Below, piece after piece: positions 15,131 to 36,188 of a DNA stretch of 36,516 nucleotides. Source of the stretch: an uncultured Granulosicoccaceae bacterium (GTDB taxonomy: Bacteria > Pseudomonadota > Gammaproteobacteria > Granulosicoccales > Granulosicoccaceae); assembly GCA_938003855.1 (NCBI GenBank), contig CALKXD010000188.1, positions 1 to 36,516 of the forward strand, written 5' to 3'. The notes beneath the pieces are model-generated. The model saw only the letters and a list, made by a program, of their open reading frames with translations. It had not been told where the DNA came from and did not search any database. A program made the translations under genes and the position numbers. The number at the start of each line of letters is the position of its first letter. Positions within the stretch are counted from its first letter, which is position 1.

Positions 15131-16648
15131 GTGACTACGCCATCATCAGTGCCTAATATACTGTTTGTACAGACCGATCAATTAACCGCCTTTGCACTGA
15201 GTGCCTACGGCAACACATATAGCAAAACACCGCATCTGGATCAGCTTGCGAGTAACGGTGTGGTGTTTGATACCGCCTACTGTAATTTTCCATTGTGTGC
15301 GCCATCGCGCTATTCGATGGCTTCAGGGCGGCTGGCCTCACGTATTGGCGCTTACGACAACGCGGTTGAATTTCCTGCAACGATACCTACCTATGCGCAT
15401 TACCTGCGGGCGGCCGGTTACCAGACCTGCTTGTCCGGTAAGATGCATTTTGTCGGTCCCGATCAATTGCACGGTTTTGAGCAACGCCTGACGCCGGATA
15501 TCTACCCGGCTGATTTCAGCTGGGCACCCAACTGGGTCGATGAAGGACAGCGCGATACATCAGACACGACGGGGGTGACGACTTCGGGTCGCTGCCGTGA
15601 CAGCGTACAACTGCAGTATGACAACCTGGTGCAGTCTCAGGCGCTGGCCAGGCTCGATGAGATTGCCGCAAGCGGTGACAAACGTCCTTTTTTTCTGCAG
15701 GTCTCTTTTACCCATCCGCACGATCCCTACCTGTGCCTCGAAAAACACTGGGATCTCTACAATGGCCTGGACGTACCGATGCCACAGGTTGGGGTTATGC
15801 CCGCTGACCGGCACGATATTCACTCGCGGCGAATACTGGCGCAGCATAGTATGCTCGATTTTAAATTTGACCCGGCCGATGTCGAGCGGGCGAGGCGTGC
15901 CTACTACGGGTCAGTGAGTTACATCGATGATTGCGTTGGTGACCTGGTGGCATCGCTGGAAAAAAACGCATTGCTGGATAACACGGTCATTGTGTTTACG
16001 TCGGACCATGGCGAAATGCTTGGTGAGCGCGGTATGTGGTTCAAGAAGACCTTCTTTGAGCACGCGCTGCGTATTCCGCTGCTGGTCAGCTGCCCGCAGC
16101 GCTATTCGGCCTGTCGGGTGTCAACACCGGTGTCTCTGATCGATCTGCTACCCACCTTTATGGCCTGGGCGGGCGGTGTTAACGAAGTCGAACCACTGGA
16201 CGGTCAGGATATATCATTGTTTATAAACAACCCGGTGCAGGATGAAAACAGACTGATCTGTGCCGAGTATCTAAGTGAAACAACACCGGCTCCGATCTAC
16301 ATGTTAAAGCGCGGGCGCTATAAATTTATCAGCTCGATCGCTGACCCGGATTTATTATTTGATTTACAGACCGATCCCGATGAGCTGATCAACCGGGCCG
16401 ATGATCCGGCGTTGGCTGAAGTGGTCAGAGAATTTAAAAGGGATATTACCCGCAACTGGGATAACGACACTCTTACCCGCGACATACTGCTAAGCCAGAA
16501 ACGCCGACTGCTGCTGAACCGTGCCAGTCGCAACGGTACTCAGCCCGGCTGGGACTATGACAAAGAAAGCGACACCGATATACCCTGGTACCGTGGTGTG
16601 CAAGGGTATAATCAGTGGGCCTATAACTATGTGCCGGTCGATGACTAA
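15131..16648 (+). CDS. betC: choline-sulfatase-like cytoplasmic sulfatase (BetC type)
   Basis: A 505-residue alkaline-phosphatase-fold sulfatase without a signal peptide. The formylglycine motif CAPSR has the modified cysteine at residue 56; Asp16 of QTDQ and the TSDHGEMLGE block bind the metal. Long stretches, including YDNAVEFPATIPTYAHYL and SGKMHFVGPDQLHGFE, resemble rhizobial choline-sulfatase closely, more than they do general arylsulfatases. The expected reaction is choline-O-sulfate to choline and sulfate, feeding glycine betaine synthesis or carbon use. It starts with GTG behind a good GGAGGA site (15120-15125), and is the last gene of the ABC transporter operon, which suggests that the transporter brings in its substrate. 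Choline dehydrogenase and betaine aldehyde dehydrogenase are not in the window. Substrate specificity could differ for a related ester. Confidence 0.85.
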   Translation: MTTPSSVPNILFVQTDQLTAFALSAYGNTYSKTPHLDQLASNGVVFDTAYCNFPLCAPSRYSMASGRLASRIGAYDNAVEFPATIPTYAHYLRAAGYQTCLSGKMHFVGPDQLHGFEQRLTPDIYPADFSWAPNWVDEGQRDTSDTTGVTTSGRCRDSVQLQYDNLVQSQALARLDEIAASGDKRPFFLQVSFTHPHDPYLCLEKHWDLYNGLDVPMPQVGVMPADRHDIHSRRILAQHSMLDFKFDPADVERARRAYYGSVSYIDDCVGDLVASLEKNALLDNTVIVFTSDHGEMLGERGMWFKKTFFEHALRIPLLVSCPQRYSACRVSTPVSLIDLLPTFMAWAGGVNEVEPLDGQDISLFINNPVQDENRLICAEYLSETTPAPIYMLKRGRYKFISSIADPDLLFDLQTDPDELINRADDPALAEVVREFKRDITRNWDNDTLTRDILLSQKRRLLLNRASRNGTQPGWDYDKESDTDIPWYRGVQGYNQWAYNYVPVDD

Positions 16649-19766: not shown

Positions 19767-20379
19767 CCGGTGGTTCTGTAGCGCTGTTTTATTTTGTGTT
19801 ACCAGAGCGATGAAACTCTCAGGCAGTATCGTCACAGGCTGCCGCCGCTATAGATGTGCAATCGGCACATCGGTGGTATCGATAAAATTTCAGAATCAAG
19901 GGCTCCGTTGTCTGACGATGTGGCGGAGGTAACTGGTTCTCTCGAGCCACGCTCAATGGCTATTGAGGAACCCGAAGGAAAACTGTCCGGGCTGGCCTGT
20001 GTGTGCGATAAATCTATCTATCAGCGAGTGGGCGTAGCCTGCCTTATAGCGCAGACGGTTCACGATCACCTATGATGCCCGCTGACGTTTTTTTTGCAAC
20101 TGGTTATGTACGGCTTTGTTTAAACCCTTCTGTCGTTGTGACTGTGCGTCGTATGAGTGGCTGTGGTAGCGGGTTTTTGGGCAGAACTGTGCAAATCAAT
20201 CAGCGCCGTGTACGCCCGCTGCGTTATTTTTTTGATGGTGTGTAATTAAAATGGCAGTGATCTCTGCGATATCGAGGGTTGTCGTGTAACATGTTTGTGG
20301 ACACATTTTCCGAAACAGCGATTACAACGCGTTTGTCGTCACACAGCGTGACGGTCAATTGATTGGGAGGAGAGAGAAA
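19767..20379. other. 613-base non-coding region before the repeat-protein gene
   Basis: No convincing gene. A possible 73-codon forward frame at 19854-20075 resembles nothing known and has no ribosome site. Between about 20026 and 20095 an AGTGGGC segment can pair with GCCCGCT (one G-T pair) just before a run of eight T's, so an RNA ending near 20095 is conceivable, though the loop would be long. The final part carries a 17-base palindrome (20337-20353) and the very strong GGGAGGAGAG ribosome site of the next gene. Confidence 0.4.
20337..20353. promoter_or_regulatory. perfect inverted repeat upstream of the seven-repeat gene
   Basis: CGTCAC and GTGACG are separated by five bases, 27 bases before the ATG of the repeat-protein gene. 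The arms are perfect and TGAC-like half-sites are common for dimeric bacterial regulators, but no regulator can be named. It would also form a 6-bp RNA hairpin in the leader just before the ribosome site. Confidence 0.4.
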
Positions 20380-21741
20380 ATGCTGGGAAGAAAGCTATCA
20401 GTTGCTTTGGTGTTGGTTGTCGGTGGTGCGGGTGGCACATCGTCCGGTCTGTCGCATGCCGATGGTAACCGATTACCGACCGACCCGGTGACCGGTGCCA
20501 CGATCTACGGAACCACTTCAGCGGTTGCCACTGTAACCGAATCTGAGACCGTCGGGGATTCTGCCAGTGCTGCGCCGGCGCCGGCGATGCAGCGGTTTCC
20601 CACCGATCCGGTGACAGGTGCAACAATCTATCCGGCGGAGGCCGAAGTGGCGACCGCCAGCGATGTGGCTGAAACTAACAGACTGCCGAGCGATCCGAAA
20701 ACCGGTGCAACGATATACCCGGATTCTGCAATGCCGGCGGCGGTTGCTTCGGTCACAGGTACCGCGGCAATGACCGCTGGCGGCGACAGCGAGCGCCTGC
20801 CCTATGATCCGGTCACCGGAGCCACAGTGTACCCGGGCGATGAACACGCCAGCGCTGCAGTCGCTGACCCGGCGGACAATTCGCTGGTCGCTGCAACTGA
20901 GCCGGAGCCTGAACTTGACCCCGGGCGGCTGCCGGCAGATCCGGTCACCGGTGCCACAATCTATACAGCGGTGGCAGCAGAAGCCACAGAAACGGAGACC
21001 ACATCTCTGGCATCCGGTGAGGCACCCGATGATGCCGTTGAGCCTGCCGGGAACCGACTGCCGTTTGATCCGGTAACCGGAGCGACCATATATCAATCGG
21101 CGCCGGCAGAGAGCAGCGGCGAGGACTCGCAAACCACAGGCAGTCTGGAAGTCGCGCCGAAGCCGGCAGCGGATACTGAAACTGCGGCCACGGACACAGA
21201 TACTGCTATAAGCCCAAGTGCAGTGCTGGCGACCACTGAATCCACGTCACCACGTATAGCGTTTGATCCAGTCACCGGAGCCAGTATTCACGAGGTGGTA
21301 GCAATGGCCGGTACGGAGGATCTCACCGTAGACACAGCCACACTGCTCCCCGGAGTTGCAACCACACTCAGTGAAGAGACTATCGTCAAGATCGCCGAGA
21401 TGGGCAACACTGATATCGACAACAACCTTAACGGCATAAGTCGCCAGCTTGGCCGGGTCTTCGGGGTAACGTCCTCGGTGATGCTGACCTCTACCGATGA
21501 AGCATCGGCTACGGTAGCGCTGCCGAGGCTTGTCACAGCCAGCAGTAGCCTGGACGAGGTTACAGATTCTTTTGCCGCGCTGCCGGACGCCGCTAAACAC
21601 CCGCTGAAAAAAGCCATTGGCAGCAGCCTGATGCGACTCACGCCGCTGGTTGATAATACGCTCGGCAAAGAGGGCGTTGGACCGGTATTAACGCCGGTGA
21701 TCGGGCCGATGATGGAAACACTGAACGGATTGACCAAATAG
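20380..21741 (+). CDS. exported seven-repeat protein of unknown function
   Basis: A 453-residue protein that I do not recognise. Residues 1-27 form a signal peptide (basic start, hydrophobic core, LSHA end). Residues 31-304 carry seven copies of a 13-residue motif with consensus RLPxDPVTGATIY, separated by 16 to 53 residues of Ala/Thr/Glu/Asp-rich, probably disordered linker. The last copy is the most diverged (RIAFDPVTGASIH). Residues about 310-453 look folded and partly helical, without repeats or recognisable motif, and contain no cysteine. Composition is acidic and proline-poor outside the motifs. The start is ATG 20380, because the GGGAGGAGAG site directly precedes it; the frame is open back to TTG 20359. 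The product is probably periplasmic or surface-located; there is no C-terminal anchor. Neighbouring genes do not suggest a pathway. Confidence 0.85.
   Translation: MLGRKLSVALVLVVGGAGGTSSGLSHADGNRLPTDPVTGATIYGTTSAVATVTESETVGDSASAAPAPAMQRFPTDPVTGATIYPAEAEVATASDVAETNRLPSDPKTGATIYPDSAMPAAVASVTGTAAMTAGGDSERLPYDPVTGATVYPGDEHASAAVADPADNSLVAATEPEPELDPGRLPADPVTGATIYTAVAAEATETETTSLASGEAPDDAVEPAGNRLPFDPVTGATIYQSAPAESSGEDSQTTGSLEVAPKPAADTETAATDTDTAISPSAVLATTESTSPRIAFDPVTGASIHEVVAMAGTEDLTVDTATLLPGVATTLSEETIVKIAEMGNTDIDNNLNGISRQLGRVFGVTSSVMLTSTDEASATVALPRLVTASSSLDEVTDSFAALPDAAKHPLKKAIGSSLMRLTPLVDNTLGKEGVGPVLTPVIGPMMETLNGLTK
20470..21291 (+). repeat. seven coding repeats of a 39-base unit
   Basis: The units start at 20470, 20593, 20680, 20794, 20926, 21055 and 21253 and each encodes 13 residues with the core DPVTGATIY (DPKTG in unit 3). 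Synonymous codons differ among the units (for example GTG ACC GGT, GTC ACC GGA, GTA ACC GGA), so protein sequence is conserved more than DNA sequence. This points to selection on the peptide motif and to old duplication, not to recent slippage. Confidence 0.92.
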
Positions 21742-22053: not shown

Positions 22054-23094
22054 TTGGTCGCAGCCGTTGTACTTACCGGTGCAACTGTCCTGTGTTGCCT
22101 GTTGATGAGCGCGGCAAGTGCCTCTGAACTGACCCGTCTGGCGTTTGGATCCTGCAATCATTCTCACCTGCCGCAACCAATGTGGTCGATCATCGACTCG
22201 CATGAGCCCGATGTGTTTCTGTGGACTGGCGATGTTATCTATGCAGACACCCACGACGCCGCGGAGATGCAGCGCAAGTATGCTGAGCAAATGGCGAATC
22301 CCGGATACCGGCAGTTTATTGAAAAATACCCGGTAGCCGGCATTTGGGATGATCATGATTTTGGTGATAATAACAGCGGTAAAAGTTACCCGTTAAAGAA
22401 GCAAAGTCAGCAGTTTTTCCTTGATTTCCTTGGTGAACCCGCCAACACAGAGCGGCGTCAGCGCCAGGGTATCTATACCAGTCACACTTATGGCGAGGGC
22501 GACAAGCGGGCACGCATGATACTTCTGGATACGCGGTATCATCGTGATCTGCCGGGAGTAGGTCGCGCTGATGTGCTTGGGGAAGCGCAGTGGCAATGGC
22601 TCGAACAGCAGTTTCGCGACAATACCGCGGCGATTAACTTCATTGTCAGCGGCGTGTCTGTGCTGTCGAATCAGATGCCATTTGCCGAAGAGTGGAATGA
22701 TTTCAAATGGTCGCGCAAACGGCTGTTCCGACTGATTGACAAGTACCGGCTGAACGGTGTGATTTTCCTGACCGGAGACCGCCACTTTTCAGCCCATTTG
22801 TCAGAGACAGAGCGGGGTCAGCCCTACCATGAATTCATGAGCAGCGGTCTGACACACTATATGAACCGTGCATGGGTGTCGCGAATCTTCCGGTTCTACT
22901 ATGGTGATGAGAACAGCTACTTCGGCCGTAACTTCAGTATGCTGTCTATCGACTGGGACAGTGATCCGGTGCGGTTGCGGTTTAATGTTTACGATGATCA
23001 AAACCGTCAGCAGGTCGACAAAAGCCTGTGGCTCAATGGCCGCTACTGGTCAGATCAGTCGATGCAATTGTCGAACGCTTACGGGAGTGAGTAA
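22054..23094 (+). CDS. PhoD-like alkaline phosphatase family protein, exported
   Basis: A protein of up to 346 residues of the PhoD-type metallophosphoesterase family. Metal-binding blocks are FGSCNH, WTGDVIYAD, WDDHDFGDNN and the late TGDRHFSAHL. An N-terminal hydrophobic segment ending in SAASAS looks like a signal peptide, so the enzyme should work in the periplasm or outside the cell, releasing phosphate from phosphodiesters or monoesters. It is shorter than classical PhoD (over 500 residues) and matches the compact PhoD-like group in marine bacteria. The start is unsure: TTG 22054 preserves a plausible signal peptide, while the only nearby ATG (22105) would remove most of it. The frame is open upstream to 21985 without an ATG or GTG. 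Confidence 0.85.
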   Translation: MVAAVVLTGATVLCCLLMSAASASELTRLAFGSCNHSHLPQPMWSIIDSHEPDVFLWTGDVIYADTHDAAEMQRKYAEQMANPGYRQFIEKYPVAGIWDDHDFGDNNSGKSYPLKKQSQQFFLDFLGEPANTERRQRQGIYTSHTYGEGDKRARMILLDTRYHRDLPGVGRADVLGEAQWQWLEQQFRDNTAAINFIVSGVSVLSNQMPFAEEWNDFKWSRKRLFRLIDKYRLNGVIFLTGDRHFSAHLSETERGQPYHEFMSSGLTHYMNRAWVSRIFRFYYGDENSYFGRNFSMLSIDWDSDPVRLRFNVYDDQNRQQVDKSLWLNGRYWSDQSMQLSNAYGSE

Positions 23095-23226: not shown

Positions 23227-24150
23227 TCATTGTTGCGGGATCGCTGATACACCGGACAAGGTAACGCCAAGAGGGCCACGCGGAATAGCCAGGTTCAGTG
23301 TTTGCCCGCCGCGTAACACAGAAACAGAAACCAGCTCGCCGCGTATGCCATCACGGGTAGCGTTTTGCAGCTCACGAGAGGTGTAAATGAGGGCGTCAGC
23401 GTACGCCAGTACTATATCGCCTGTGGTAATCCCGGACACTTGTGCCGCCGAGCCATTGATAATACTCCGAACCTGAACGCGGTTGCTTTCGCCTGCTGCA
23501 TACAGATAGTTATCGTAGGCCGTATCACCGATCTCAGACCGAATGTCGACCCGTTGCTCGTGCAGTTCACGCATTTTTTCGCCAAACTCGTCCGAGTCGC
23601 GCCAGCCTTCCCGGGACGCCGTGTCGATGAGGTCGAGTCTGTCCAGTGTCCATTGATCACTGCGCTGCTTGATTTCCACTGCGGTGCCCTGATCGACTCC
23701 GGCGGTTATCAAGCCGTCGTATTGCGTCTGTGTGGCTGAGACGTTACGGTTGCCGCCGCGGCCGGTGGAGTTGTGCAGGTCTGCACCGGTAGCGCTGGTC
23801 GCCGCATCGTCGCTTAGAGCGCCCGGCAGAAAGCGCTCGTCCTGATTTGCCTGGAGCGAGTTGATGGCATCGACAGTCTGGCGTAACTGGTCGCGCTCCG
23901 AGGCGGCGAACGCCAGTTCCTGCTGCAGCGTTTGTATTTGCGTCTGCAGTGTTACCAGGGAAGGTTCCCCTGTAAATGCAGCCACCGACGTCTGTGAGTC
24001 AGCCGCTGCAGTCACAGCGCCCGGGCTGACTGTCTGATGGTCACTCTGACTCCGGCCGATCTGTATCCAGCCTGACATTTGCAAAAAAAGCATGGTGAGT
24101 ATTCCCGCAACAAATGCCACGGGGATGGCTGGAATCCAATTCTGTTTCAT
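23227..24150 (-). CDS. membrane-anchored coiled-coil and PDZ-domain protein
   Basis: A 307-residue protein with a single N-terminal membrane span (about 8-25), a low-complexity Ser/Thr/Ala stretch, a coiled coil near residues 65-100 (LVTLQTQIQTLQQELAFAAS) and a polar linker. A further charged helical region (about 145-190) precedes a C-terminal PDZ domain from about residue 205 (VQVRSIINGSAAQVSGITTGDIVLAY, read in two pieces, then SVSVLRGGQTLNLAIP). The topology puts the PDZ domain in the periplasm. There is no protease domain, so it is an adaptor or binding protein, with a layout loosely like GspC but without that family's other features. It lies downstream of and on the same strand as a small exported protein gene, 177 bases apart. 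Confidence 0.75.
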   Translation of the reverse strand: MKQNWIPAIPVAFVAGILTMLFLQMSGWIQIGRSQSDHQTVSPGAVTAAADSQTSVAAFTGEPSLVTLQTQIQTLQQELAFAASERDQLRQTVDAINSLQANQDERFLPGALSDDAATSATGADLHNSTGRGGNRNVSATQTQYDGLITAGVDQGTAVEIKQRSDQWTLDRLDLIDTASREGWRDSDEFGEKMRELHEQRVDIRSEIGDTAYDNYLYAAGESNRVQVRSIINGSAAQVSGITTGDIVLAYADALIYTSRELQNATRDGIRGELVSVSVLRGGQTLNLAIPRGPLGVTLSGVSAIPQQ

Positions 24151-24327: not shown

Positions 24328-24900
24328 TCAGCTTTGCAGCAGACTGGCCTTGCCGTCTTGCGCGACCTGAACGCCGATTTGCAGCGAGCGGACATCCGTA
24401 TCCATACTGGCTACGTGAAGCGGCGCGGCTGCCGGACGCAGTGGGTGCGCGGCGCGTGTGGCGTTTCGCACAGAATGTGTCCAGGCCTGGTTTGGCCAGA
24501 TTTCCAATTGATTTTTGCCCCGTTGCTGTCTCGACAGCAACGCGTTGAGGTCGAGCACCTGATTGCGGTATTGAATAAACCGTGGCTGAAATGATTTAAC
24601 GATTAGCGGCTGTTCTGTGGTGTTCTCAATTAGCACCCAGTCGTCGAGTTCTTCTCGATTCATTTGTATATTGATGGTCAACTGCTGCGGTGAATCCAGC
24701 GTGGTTTGCTTTGCTGCTGCCGGGGTGGCCTTGGTTGGCGCGATGTGGTCTGCGACAGCCGGTGCTGCCATGGCAGACGCGGCCACCACACCGGCGGTGG
24801 CGGTGATTTTTTTCAGCGTGTCGCGTTTGGATTTGTCATTAAGACCGGCGTGGGCCGGATTGGTGGGTTGCGCCTTTGATTGATGCTTATTTTCTGTCAT
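24328..24900 (-). CDS. small exported protein of unknown function (paralogue of 35697-36188)
   Basis: A 190-residue protein. A 25-residue polar head is followed by KRDTLKKITATAGVVAAS and a hydrophobic Ala-rich segment ending in APAVA, a signal-like region with a KR pair that recalls a Tat motif, though it lacks RR. The mature part has a beta-rich section (about 74-122) with LTINIQM...DDWVLIENTTEQPLIV and ends in LDLNALL, then a variable tail. The same plan is seen in the gene at 35697-36188. The sandwich-like alternation suggests an Ig-like or similar domain, but no named family is recognised. The start is ATG 24900, because GGAG lies six bases upstream; the frame is open to 24939. The PDZ gene follows downstream on the same strand. 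Confidence 0.7.
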   Translation of the reverse strand: MTENKHQSKAQPTNPAHAGLNDKSKRDTLKKITATAGVVAASAMAAPAVADHIAPTKATPAAAKQTTLDSPQQLTINIQMNREELDDWVLIENTTEQPLIVKSFQPRFIQYRNQVLDLNALLSRQQRGKNQLEIWPNQAWTHSVRNATRAAHPLRPAAAPLHVASMDTDVRSLQIGVQVAQDGKASLLQS

Positions 24901-25110
24901 GTAGTTCTCCATGCCGCCCCAAAGTGTAGAAGCAGTCAATAGTAATCATTGGGGTATTTGCCGCTAAACCACCGTTGAAGACTGTAGAAATGTGTGTCTT
25001 TCAGCCTTTGCAGTTGTCGGGTCCCGTTAGTATGCCGCTGTGTCGGCTGTCAATCGACGCAATCCCCGGTGCAGGGCACTGCAGATTTCTATAGGTATTA
25101 AAAACATCAG

Positions 25111-29935: not shown

Positions 29936-31219
29936 ATGAAACGTTTAAATGCAGTAGCCGCATTACTGGCAGGCTTGCTGGCGACCAAGACAGTGGATGC
30001 CAAGCCCAATATACTGCTTGTCATTGCAGATGATGCAGGGGTGGATGTATCCCGTTGTTATCAGCTTGGAGAGCAACAGGCATTGATGCCAACGCTTGAG
30101 CATTTGTGTGAAACCGGAGTGGTGTTTGATAACGCCTATTCTGCACCCGTGTGCTCTCCGACACGTGCCACTATCATGACCGGGCGATACGGGTTTCGCA
30201 CCGGTATTGGTGCGCCGATACCAAAGAGAGGCGGTACTGGTTTATCGAGTGACGAAACCAGCCTGTTTGACCTGCTGAACACGACGGATTACGCAAGTGC
30301 TTTGATTGGTAAATGGCATCTGGCATCTGCGGTGACTGACCTGGGGCATCCGGCCGACCTTGGTGTTAACGAGTATTTCGGCATGATGTCAGGTAGTGTG
30401 CCGGACTACTTTGACTGGCAGGCTAATGATAATGGCACCACGGTCGAGGTATCGCAGTACAGCACCACGGCGTTAACCGACCGGTCCATTGACTGGATTA
30501 ACTCTCAGCAGTCGCCGTGGTTTTTGTGGCTTGCCTATAATGCGCCGCATACGCCGTTTCATTTACCACCAAAGTCGCTGCACAGTTTTGATGAGCTATC
30601 TGGCAGTGTCGCAGACATTAAGGCGAACCCGTTGCCGTATTTCCAGGCTGCACTGGAGTCACTTGATACTGAAATGGGGCGCTTGCTGTCGTCATTGCCT
30701 GAAGACGTACGTGAGAACACCATGGTAGTTTTCATTGGCGACAATGGCACACCGGGTCAGGTTGCACGACATCTTTATGGCGATAAAGGCGCCAAGGGAA
30801 GTATCTATGAAGGTGGCACGCGTATCCCTTTTGTGGTGTCCGGGCCCGGTGTCGATGCGGGGCGCAGCGACGCTTTGGTCAATACCAGTGATCTATACGC
30901 CACCATCGCCTCATTGGCAGGGGCATCGTCGAGTGCCGCGGACTCCATCAATATGGTGCCGGTCCTGCACGGTGAGCCCGGCGGCCGCCGCCATGCCTAC
31001 GTTGAGCTTTTTGGCAATAACCGCCGCGGGCCGGACAAGGCCGGGTGGGCAATACGCGATAAGCAATTCAAGCTGGTGACCGAGAAAGATCAGCCTGCGA
31101 AATTATTCGATCTGAGCGCTGACCCCCTCGAGACAACTGATCTGCTGCCCAATGGCAACGACGCTGTGCAACGCAAAGCCGCAGAACTTCTGCAAGCTGC
31201 CACGGCCTTAAAGCAGTAA
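29936..31219 (+). CDS. periplasmic sulfatase (arylsulfatase family)
   Basis: A 427-residue cysteine-type sulfatase with a signal peptide (residues 1-22, ending VDA) and a mature start KPNILLVIADDAG that supplies the metal aspartates 32 and 33. The formylglycine motif CSPTR has its cysteine at residue 73, followed by MTGRYGFRTG. GKWHLA and the late VFIGDNGTPGQ metal block are also present. It should hydrolyse sulfate esters, perhaps from algal polysaccharides or small aromatics, in the periplasm; specificity is unknown. It is short for the family but all catalytic blocks are present. It needs a formylglycine-generating enzyme, which is not in this window. The ribosome site is a weak GGAT. Confidence 0.9.
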   Translation: MKRLNAVAALLAGLLATKTVDAKPNILLVIADDAGVDVSRCYQLGEQQALMPTLEHLCETGVVFDNAYSAPVCSPTRATIMTGRYGFRTGIGAPIPKRGGTGLSSDETSLFDLLNTTDYASALIGKWHLASAVTDLGHPADLGVNEYFGMMSGSVPDYFDWQANDNGTTVEVSQYSTTALTDRSIDWINSQQSPWFLWLAYNAPHTPFHLPPKSLHSFDELSGSVADIKANPLPYFQAALESLDTEMGRLLSSLPEDVRENTMVVFIGDNGTPGQVARHLYGDKGAKGSIYEGGTRIPFVVSGPGVDAGRSDALVNTSDLYATIASLAGASSSAADSINMVPVLHGEPGGRRHAYVELFGNNRRGPDKAGWAIRDKQFKLVTEKDQPAKLFDLSADPLETTDLLPNGNDAVQRKAAELLQAATALKQ

Positions 31220-35696: not shown

Positions 35697-36188
35697 CTAG
35701 GCGATTGCGATATTGTCCACTATCGAGACACTGGCGAACGAATTACCGTCAGCGACAATGCTCATGGTTCTTTTCAAGGAGTCCGTCAGAGACAGTCCGC
35801 AGGCCTTTTGGGTGGTCATGACGGATGCTGTGTGCTGTTGTAATGGTACTACGGTACTTTCCCCCGCTGCCAGGTGCAACGGACCGTCTTTGAGCAACGC
35901 AGAAAAATTAAACTGACCCCGTGGTACGTTGGTCACGGTTGGAGTCATGTGAGTGATGGTCACGGCACTGTCAGCGGTGTTTTTAAGGACCACTTCCAGA
36001 TCATTTTTTGTTGCTGAAATCCGCGTAGTAACTTCTATATTTGCCAGACCCGGCAAAGCGCAGTCATGTGTGGTGCCGGTGGTTGCCAGCAGTGCTGATG
36101 CACCTGCCGATGTTGCTACAGTGGCAGCCAAGCCTGCAGAGGCTGCGGCTATCGTTTTAATGGTCTTGCGCTTTGCGTAATCGATCAT
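35697..36188 (-). CDS. small exported protein of unknown function (paralogue of 24328-24900)
   Basis: A 163-residue protein. Residues 1-37 form a signal-like region: basic start YAKRKTIKTIAAASAGLAAT, then an Ala/Ser/Thr-rich hydrophobic stretch. The mature part has a beta-rich section (about 51-99) with IEVTTRISATKNDLEVVLKN and ends in FNFSALL, in the same order as the homologous blocks of the gene at 24328-24900, and a C-terminal section with two-fold alternation. Cysteines 43 and 130 could form a disulfide. I do not recognise a named family. ATG 36188 has a short GGA upstream. No neighbour on the same strand is close enough to suggest an operon, although a possible gene ends about 195 bases upstream. 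Confidence 0.75.
   Translation of the reverse strand: MIDYAKRKTIKTIAAASAGLAATVATSAGASALLATTGTTHDCALPGLANIEVTTRISATKNDLEVVLKNTADSAVTITHMTPTVTNVPRGQFNFSALLKDGPLHLAAGESTVVPLQQHTASVMTTQKACGLSLTDSLKRTMSIVADGNSFASVSIVDNIAIA

Follow-up and report, generated by a model that had tools for sequence, protein, structure and literature searches.

The closest described systems to the gene reported here come from several directions. TolA and TonB couple to a proton motor through a histidine in their transmembrane (TM) helix, and chignolin, a designed 10-residue hairpin, has Tyr2-Trp9 as its cross-strand pair. The sequence of chignolin is GYDPETGTWG (PMC6435801), and the repeat tract of tolA varies in length (PMC3477136). 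Also already known is a family in which a DUF937 domain is followed by a TM helix and a C-terminal domain (CTD); this family itself has no known function, and we found almost nothing on DUF937 in the open-access literature searched. We analyzed a stretch of 36,516 nucleotides (the window) from an uncultured marine gammaproteobacterium of the Granulosicoccaceae, in which one gene carries an undescribed repeated motif built on this DUF937-TM-CTD family.

The gene and its exported product

We compared the locus with that of its ortholog (L053) in "Chromatiales bacterium (ex Bugula neritina AB1)" (G012, hereafter AB1). AlphaFold2 is abbreviated AF2, and its bridges are given by residue number.

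20380..21741, + strand: gene for an exported motif-CTD protein (P0001, 453 aa), from its translation, its RBS, and an AB1 ortholog with conserved flanking genes
20380..20460, + strand: signal peptide, residues 1-27, cut between SHA and DG predicted by eye, no Cys
20470..20508, + strand: motif 1, RLPTDPVTGATIY, residues 31-43, AF2 bridge 34/41
20593..20631, + strand: motif 2, RFPTDPVTGATIY, residues 72-84, AF2 bridge 75/82
20680..20718, + strand: motif 3, RLPSDPKTGATIY, residues 101-113, AF2 bridge 104/111
20794..20832, + strand: motif 4, RLPYDPVTGATVY, residues 139-151, AF2 bridge 142/149
20926..20964, + strand: motif 5, RLPADPVTGATIY, residues 183-195, AF2 bridge 186/193
21055..21093, + strand: motif 6, RLPFDPVTGATIY, residues 226-238, AF2 bridge 229/236
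21253..21291, + strand: motif 7, degenerate, RIAFDPVTGASIH, residues 292-304, AF2 bridge 295/302 at low confidence
21406..21738, + strand: C-terminal four-helix domain, residues 343-453, from alignments, AF2 (pLDDT 87-96), and homologs in 44/48 family genomes
22054..23094, + strand: PhoD-like phosphatase, syntenic neighbor, conserved in AB1
23227..24150, - strand: protein with an N-terminal TM and a PDZ domain, syntenic neighbor, also near a TM-linker-CTD gene in three g4 genomes

The open reading frame starts with the ATG at 20380, and GGGAGGAG (20365-20372) sits 7 nt 5' of it. The protein consists of a signal peptide, seven motifs on disordered Ala/Thr/Glu/Asp linkers, and the CTD (about residues 343 to 453). 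Its N terminus, MLGRKLSVALVLVVGGAGGTSSGLSHA cut before DG, is by eye of the Sec signal peptide type and has no lipobox, and the AB1 ortholog likewise starts with a signal peptide, in agreement with the original prediction made from the DNA alone. The seven motif starts given in that prediction (residues 31, 72, 101, 139, 183, 226, and 292) match the translation exactly, and its view that no described family has these features held up in searches of Pfam, NCBIfam, PHROGs, and PDB sequences, where neither P0001 nor its CTD gave anything above the cutoff. A match to Lmo2446-like_N (E 0.006) covered one motif copy, lay under the family cutoff, and was dropped; with a single motif as query, phmmer gave no match in the PDB. 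No DUF937 domain (PF06078) above the gathering score and no TM helix were found in P0001, which has a signal peptide in place of the TM, the latter being on a separate gene (L002). Neither an Rfam RNA nor a promoter above chance was detected at the locus. The plasmids, phages, and IMG/VR searched contained no relative and so gave no link to mobile elements.

Synteny is loose: a desaturase and the PhoD and PDZ genes are found in two genomes of the window's genus (g1), the PDZ gene also in the three g4 genomes, and no consistent functional gene appeared across the neighborhoods examined. In AB1, a reverse transcriptase (RVT_1; L053:2131-3423, + strand), retron-like by eye, lies just past the PhoD/PDZ pair; none of this type was seen at the window locus. 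Two small proteins of the window (24328-24939 and 35697-36188, both - strand) are also exported, have a similar layout, and matched nothing in Pfam; two others (15131-16648 and 29936-31219, both + strand) are sulfatase-like by eye, with CAPSR and CSPTR motifs.

A conserved 13-residue motif

A peptide representing the motif is RLPYDPVTGATIYP. Six of the seven copies in the window protein are strict, fitting P.DP.TGA[TS][IVL]Y, and the seventh is degenerate; shuffling the protein 20,000 times gave a mean of 0 strict copies, against the 6 observed. The consensus from 43 copies in nine proteins is R[LYF]PxDPxTGA[TS][IVL][YF], with D, T, and G invariant and DP present in 42/43. When copies were compared with each other, pS was 0.66 and pN 0.16 in the window protein, and the same trend held within each of seven proteins (pS 0.66 to 0.76, near saturation; pN 0.09 to 0.23; pN/pS 0.13 to 0.34). 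Since synonymous sites are saturated and nonsynonymous change is low, it is the peptide and not the DNA that selection keeps, as had been claimed from the codons of this one gene. Between the window protein and its AB1 ortholog, identity is 80% in the motifs, 68% in the CTD, and 32% in the linkers (62 gapped positions); the motif is under strong purifying selection while the linkers drift. The random variation among close relatives that would have spoken against the original prediction did not come true, the copy number varying from 4 to 8 per multicopy protein, at a spacing of 25 to 107, with the sequence held over genus-level distances.

We then looked for the motif elsewhere. When the 48 genomes of the family were searched by pattern, dense clusters appeared in seven proteins, whereas backward controls were near zero, and from these genomes and the genome_contigs scan multicopy carriers were found only in Granulosicoccaceae, the scan having used the exact 9-mer DPVTGAT[IV][YF], which diverged forms elsewhere could escape. 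Exact matches in other phyla were lone copies in unrelated proteins and were taken as chance. Multimotif proteins occur in 2/14 genomes of the window's genus, so the motif system is accessory.

We modeled the full window protein with AF2 on an alignment of five sequences (pTM 0.31). The linkers had pLDDT values of <50, and six of the seven motifs were the islands with pLDDT ≥50, at a modest confidence of 49 to 61 in the motif blocks. DSSP assigned a beta-bridge between motif positions x3 and T10, seven residues apart, at 7/7 motifs. Because this bridge has the Tyr2-Trp9 spacing of chignolin and the DPxTG turn is common to both, each motif probably forms a small beta-hairpin. No motif was docked on the CTD in this model, which at its pTM is uninformative on that point.

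The C-terminal domain and the split of the gene

AF2 folded the CTD with high confidence into an up-down four-helix bundle, and residues 300 to 342 appeared at low confidence with one short helix. The original prediction had a distinct domain at residues 310 to 453; a separate domain is indeed present, and both AF2 and the alignments move its start to near 343. A CTD profile was positive in 44/48 genomes of the family (27/28 good ones), in 5/369 genomes of the class, three of these five being from Granulosicoccaceae itself, and in 4/299 genomes of the phylum, the window's own genome counted. The homologs outside the family were again DUF937-TM-CTD proteins. The lipid-binding four-helix domains of fungal Afmp4p/Mp1p (PDB 5j5k and 5e7x) ranked first in both Foldseek searches of the CTD, at E values of 0.1 to 0.15 and VIA Z scores of 8.6 to 8.8, level with unrelated bundles. 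All fold matches were generic (VIA Z ≤9.8, under the kinship level for helical bundles), and we considered but did not adopt lipid binding from the likeness to Afmp4p.

The window's genome contains two partial relatives of the protein, L003, which has only the CTD in common with it, and L002, which has only the motifs. L003 is a DUF937-TM protein (PF06078, E 6e-22), and alignment and profile show the window CTD to be homologous to that of the DUF937-TM-CTD proteins. We distinguished five architectures, with motif numbers in parentheses.

Form a, widespread: DUF937, TM, linker (mostly 20-80 residues), CTD
Form b: TM (MWKKVIPIAAVLILGWIGLNL), Ala/Asp/Thr/Glu linker of 230-770 residues, CTD
Form c: form b with motifs; L055 (4), L056 (6), L057 (5; N terminus cut by the contig end)
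Form d: signal peptide, motifs, CTD; window protein (7), L053 of AB1 (8)
Form e: TM, linker, motifs, CTD absent; L002 (4), L054 (7)

L067 and L142, which combine DUF937 with a long linker, look like intermediates between forms a and b. Most CTD proteins are motif-free, and single, degenerate MRHPVDPETGETLY copies were seen in G034 and G028. Forms d and e co-occur in both motif-bearing g1 genomes, that of the window and AB1, and form c occurs without them in Granulosicoccus (G035 and G063 are MAGs of this genus). In the CTD tree, the window protein grouped with its AB1 ortholog and the G035 motif protein, which is from Granulosicoccus, at 96/82 within the TM-linker-CTD clade; with motifs and CTD in one protein and a CTD of this clade, the window protein fits the TM-linker-motif-CTD group. 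As side observations, four TM-linker-CTD proteins (L061:7298-10189, L059:7694-10276, L010, and L011) have linkers of 550 to 770 Ala/Asp/Thr/Glu residues made of short tandem units (e.g., ATEATEATEA) that are likely length-variable. DUF937 is expanded in Granulosicoccaceae (the window's genome gave five matches), yet G057, despite its three CTD proteins, lacks DUF937 altogether.

The TM segments of L002 and L054 scored 44 to 80 against those of the fused proteins in 11/12 comparisons, exceeding all 497 unrelated hydrophobic segments used as background, the best of which scored 37 to 47; the twelfth comparison (L054 versus L014) was within background. The N termini of form d had no homology to the TM anchors of relatives. 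The simplest reading of these sequences is that the gene was split, or was duplicated and then lost complementary parts, and that motifs were retained in each product. The anatomy of the protein and the split are well supported; duplication with differential loss could also yield these two genes with no pairing of their functions.

A putative envelope tether and its known counterparts

Comparison shows an ancestral form with a cytoplasmic DUF937, one TM helix, a short linker, and the four-helix CTD. The derived form in Granulosicoccaceae has lost DUF937 and lengthened its linker to 230 to 770 Ala/Asp/Thr/Glu-rich residues, with 13-residue motifs in the linker in some species. In the species of the window and in AB1, separate genes encode the TM end and the CTD end, with several motifs on each. 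Each motif may be a chignolin-type hairpin on a floppy string that serves as a docking clip, and many weak clips may bind a common periplasmic scaffold or one another, linking the exported CTD half to the TM-anchored half. We tentatively propose a passive tether between inner membrane and periplasm that has been split in two, in which the window protein would be the periplasmic half with the CTD and the hairpins would be docking clips; we infer its periplasmic location, the hairpin fold, and the docking. That the motif would join both halves, directly or via a common scaffold, is suggested by its retention in both, which is the best clue and not proof, because linker motifs could persist for another reason. 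The motifs are dispensable for CTD function, since most CTD proteins lack them, and no partner or co-conserved receptor gene was seen in the neighborhoods examined, where neighbors vary between loci. A two-piece trans-periplasmic tether, whose inner-membrane anchor and distal effector domain are rejoined by multivalent chignolin-like clips on both, would be a new way of building an adjustable envelope connection, and we consider it improbable.

It is rather unlikely that the hairpins bind nothing and only give a long disordered periplasmic linker stiffness, spacing, or protection, the two genes being independent paralogs. Their confinement to low-complexity linkers, their variable number (4 to 8) and spacing (25 to 107), and the many motif-free CTD proteins fit such a passive role, but the motif is fixed at thirteen positions, exposed R, Y, and T among them, which is more than a generic hairpin needs, and the pN/pS of 0.13 to 0.34 and the 80% versus 32% identity of motif and linker between orthologs also speak against it. 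The multivalent binding first put forward for this protein, here of a peptidoglycan, polysaccharide, or outer-membrane ligand and independently of the TM-motif protein, is reasonable but unproven, and we judge that form of it unlikely. Exported beads on flexible linkers, a conserved aromatic and Arg, and carriers that include host-associated and marine bacteria speak for it; yet no carbohydrate-binding family matched, a 13-residue hairpin is small for a glycan site, and the retention of the motif in both split halves is left unexplained. Recognition by a protease or modifying enzyme, through the Asp-Pro bond, the invariant Thr, and Tyr, is very unlikely: the invariant DP-T-G core resembles enzyme recognition sites, but no dedicated enzyme was found in the neighborhoods examined, seven cuts would shred the protein, and a C-terminal sorting TM is absent. 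Finally, a motif that has no function now and is left over in relaxed linkers from an earlier repeat domain would agree with the patchy distribution and the degenerate copies (motif 7 and the single copies in G034 and G028) but is extremely improbable given that every multicopy protein shows synonymous saturation with few amino acid changes.

If the proposed split tether is true, the motif would be an undescribed, strongly selected beta-hairpin repeat acting as a docking element in the bacterial envelope, an orphan four-helix domain would be tied to the common but functionally uncharacterized DUF937 family, and the fused and split architectures would be a natural pair for probing the role of long periplasmic linkers.

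Relatives of the window protein resemble TolA and TonB in plan, with an N-terminal TM, a repetitive Ala-rich periplasmic linker, and a C-terminal domain of about 100 residues, and the length of their repeat tract is variable like that of tolA; unlike TolA and TonB, they have an all-helical CTD, and motor genes were not seen adjoining. No Pfam or NCBIfam profile of a TolA or TonB C-terminal domain matched, and none of the relatives' TM segments inspected had a His. Because the relatives lack both, they are unlikely to be proton-driven and more likely to act as a passive tether or sensor. LPxTG sortase substrates have one C-terminal sorting motif followed by a TM and a basic tail; we rejected this class for the window protein, whose seven motifs are internal and which ends in a helical domain. 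The fungal Mp1p/HsbA-like fold has a bundle that resembles the CTD at a level within the generic range for helical bundles, and a sequence family match is absent. The DPxTG turn and the cross-strand pair at i, i+7 are common to chignolin and the window motif, but the latter is natural, repeated, and longer, has Arg-Pro and Ile-Tyr flanks, and is known as a predicted structure. DUF937-TM-CTD proteins such as L003, from whose architecture the TM-linker-CTD branch descends, have a CTD homologous to the four-helix CTD described here, whereas the window protein has neither DUF937 nor TM and has a signal peptide and motif repeats. Its closest full relatives are the Granulosicoccus proteins L055, L056, L059, and L061 (CTD 52 to 58% identical), and it has the motif in common with L055, L056, and L057; those TM-linker-(motif)-CTD proteins are in one piece with an N-terminal TM anchor, whereas the exported window protein is separate from its TM half.
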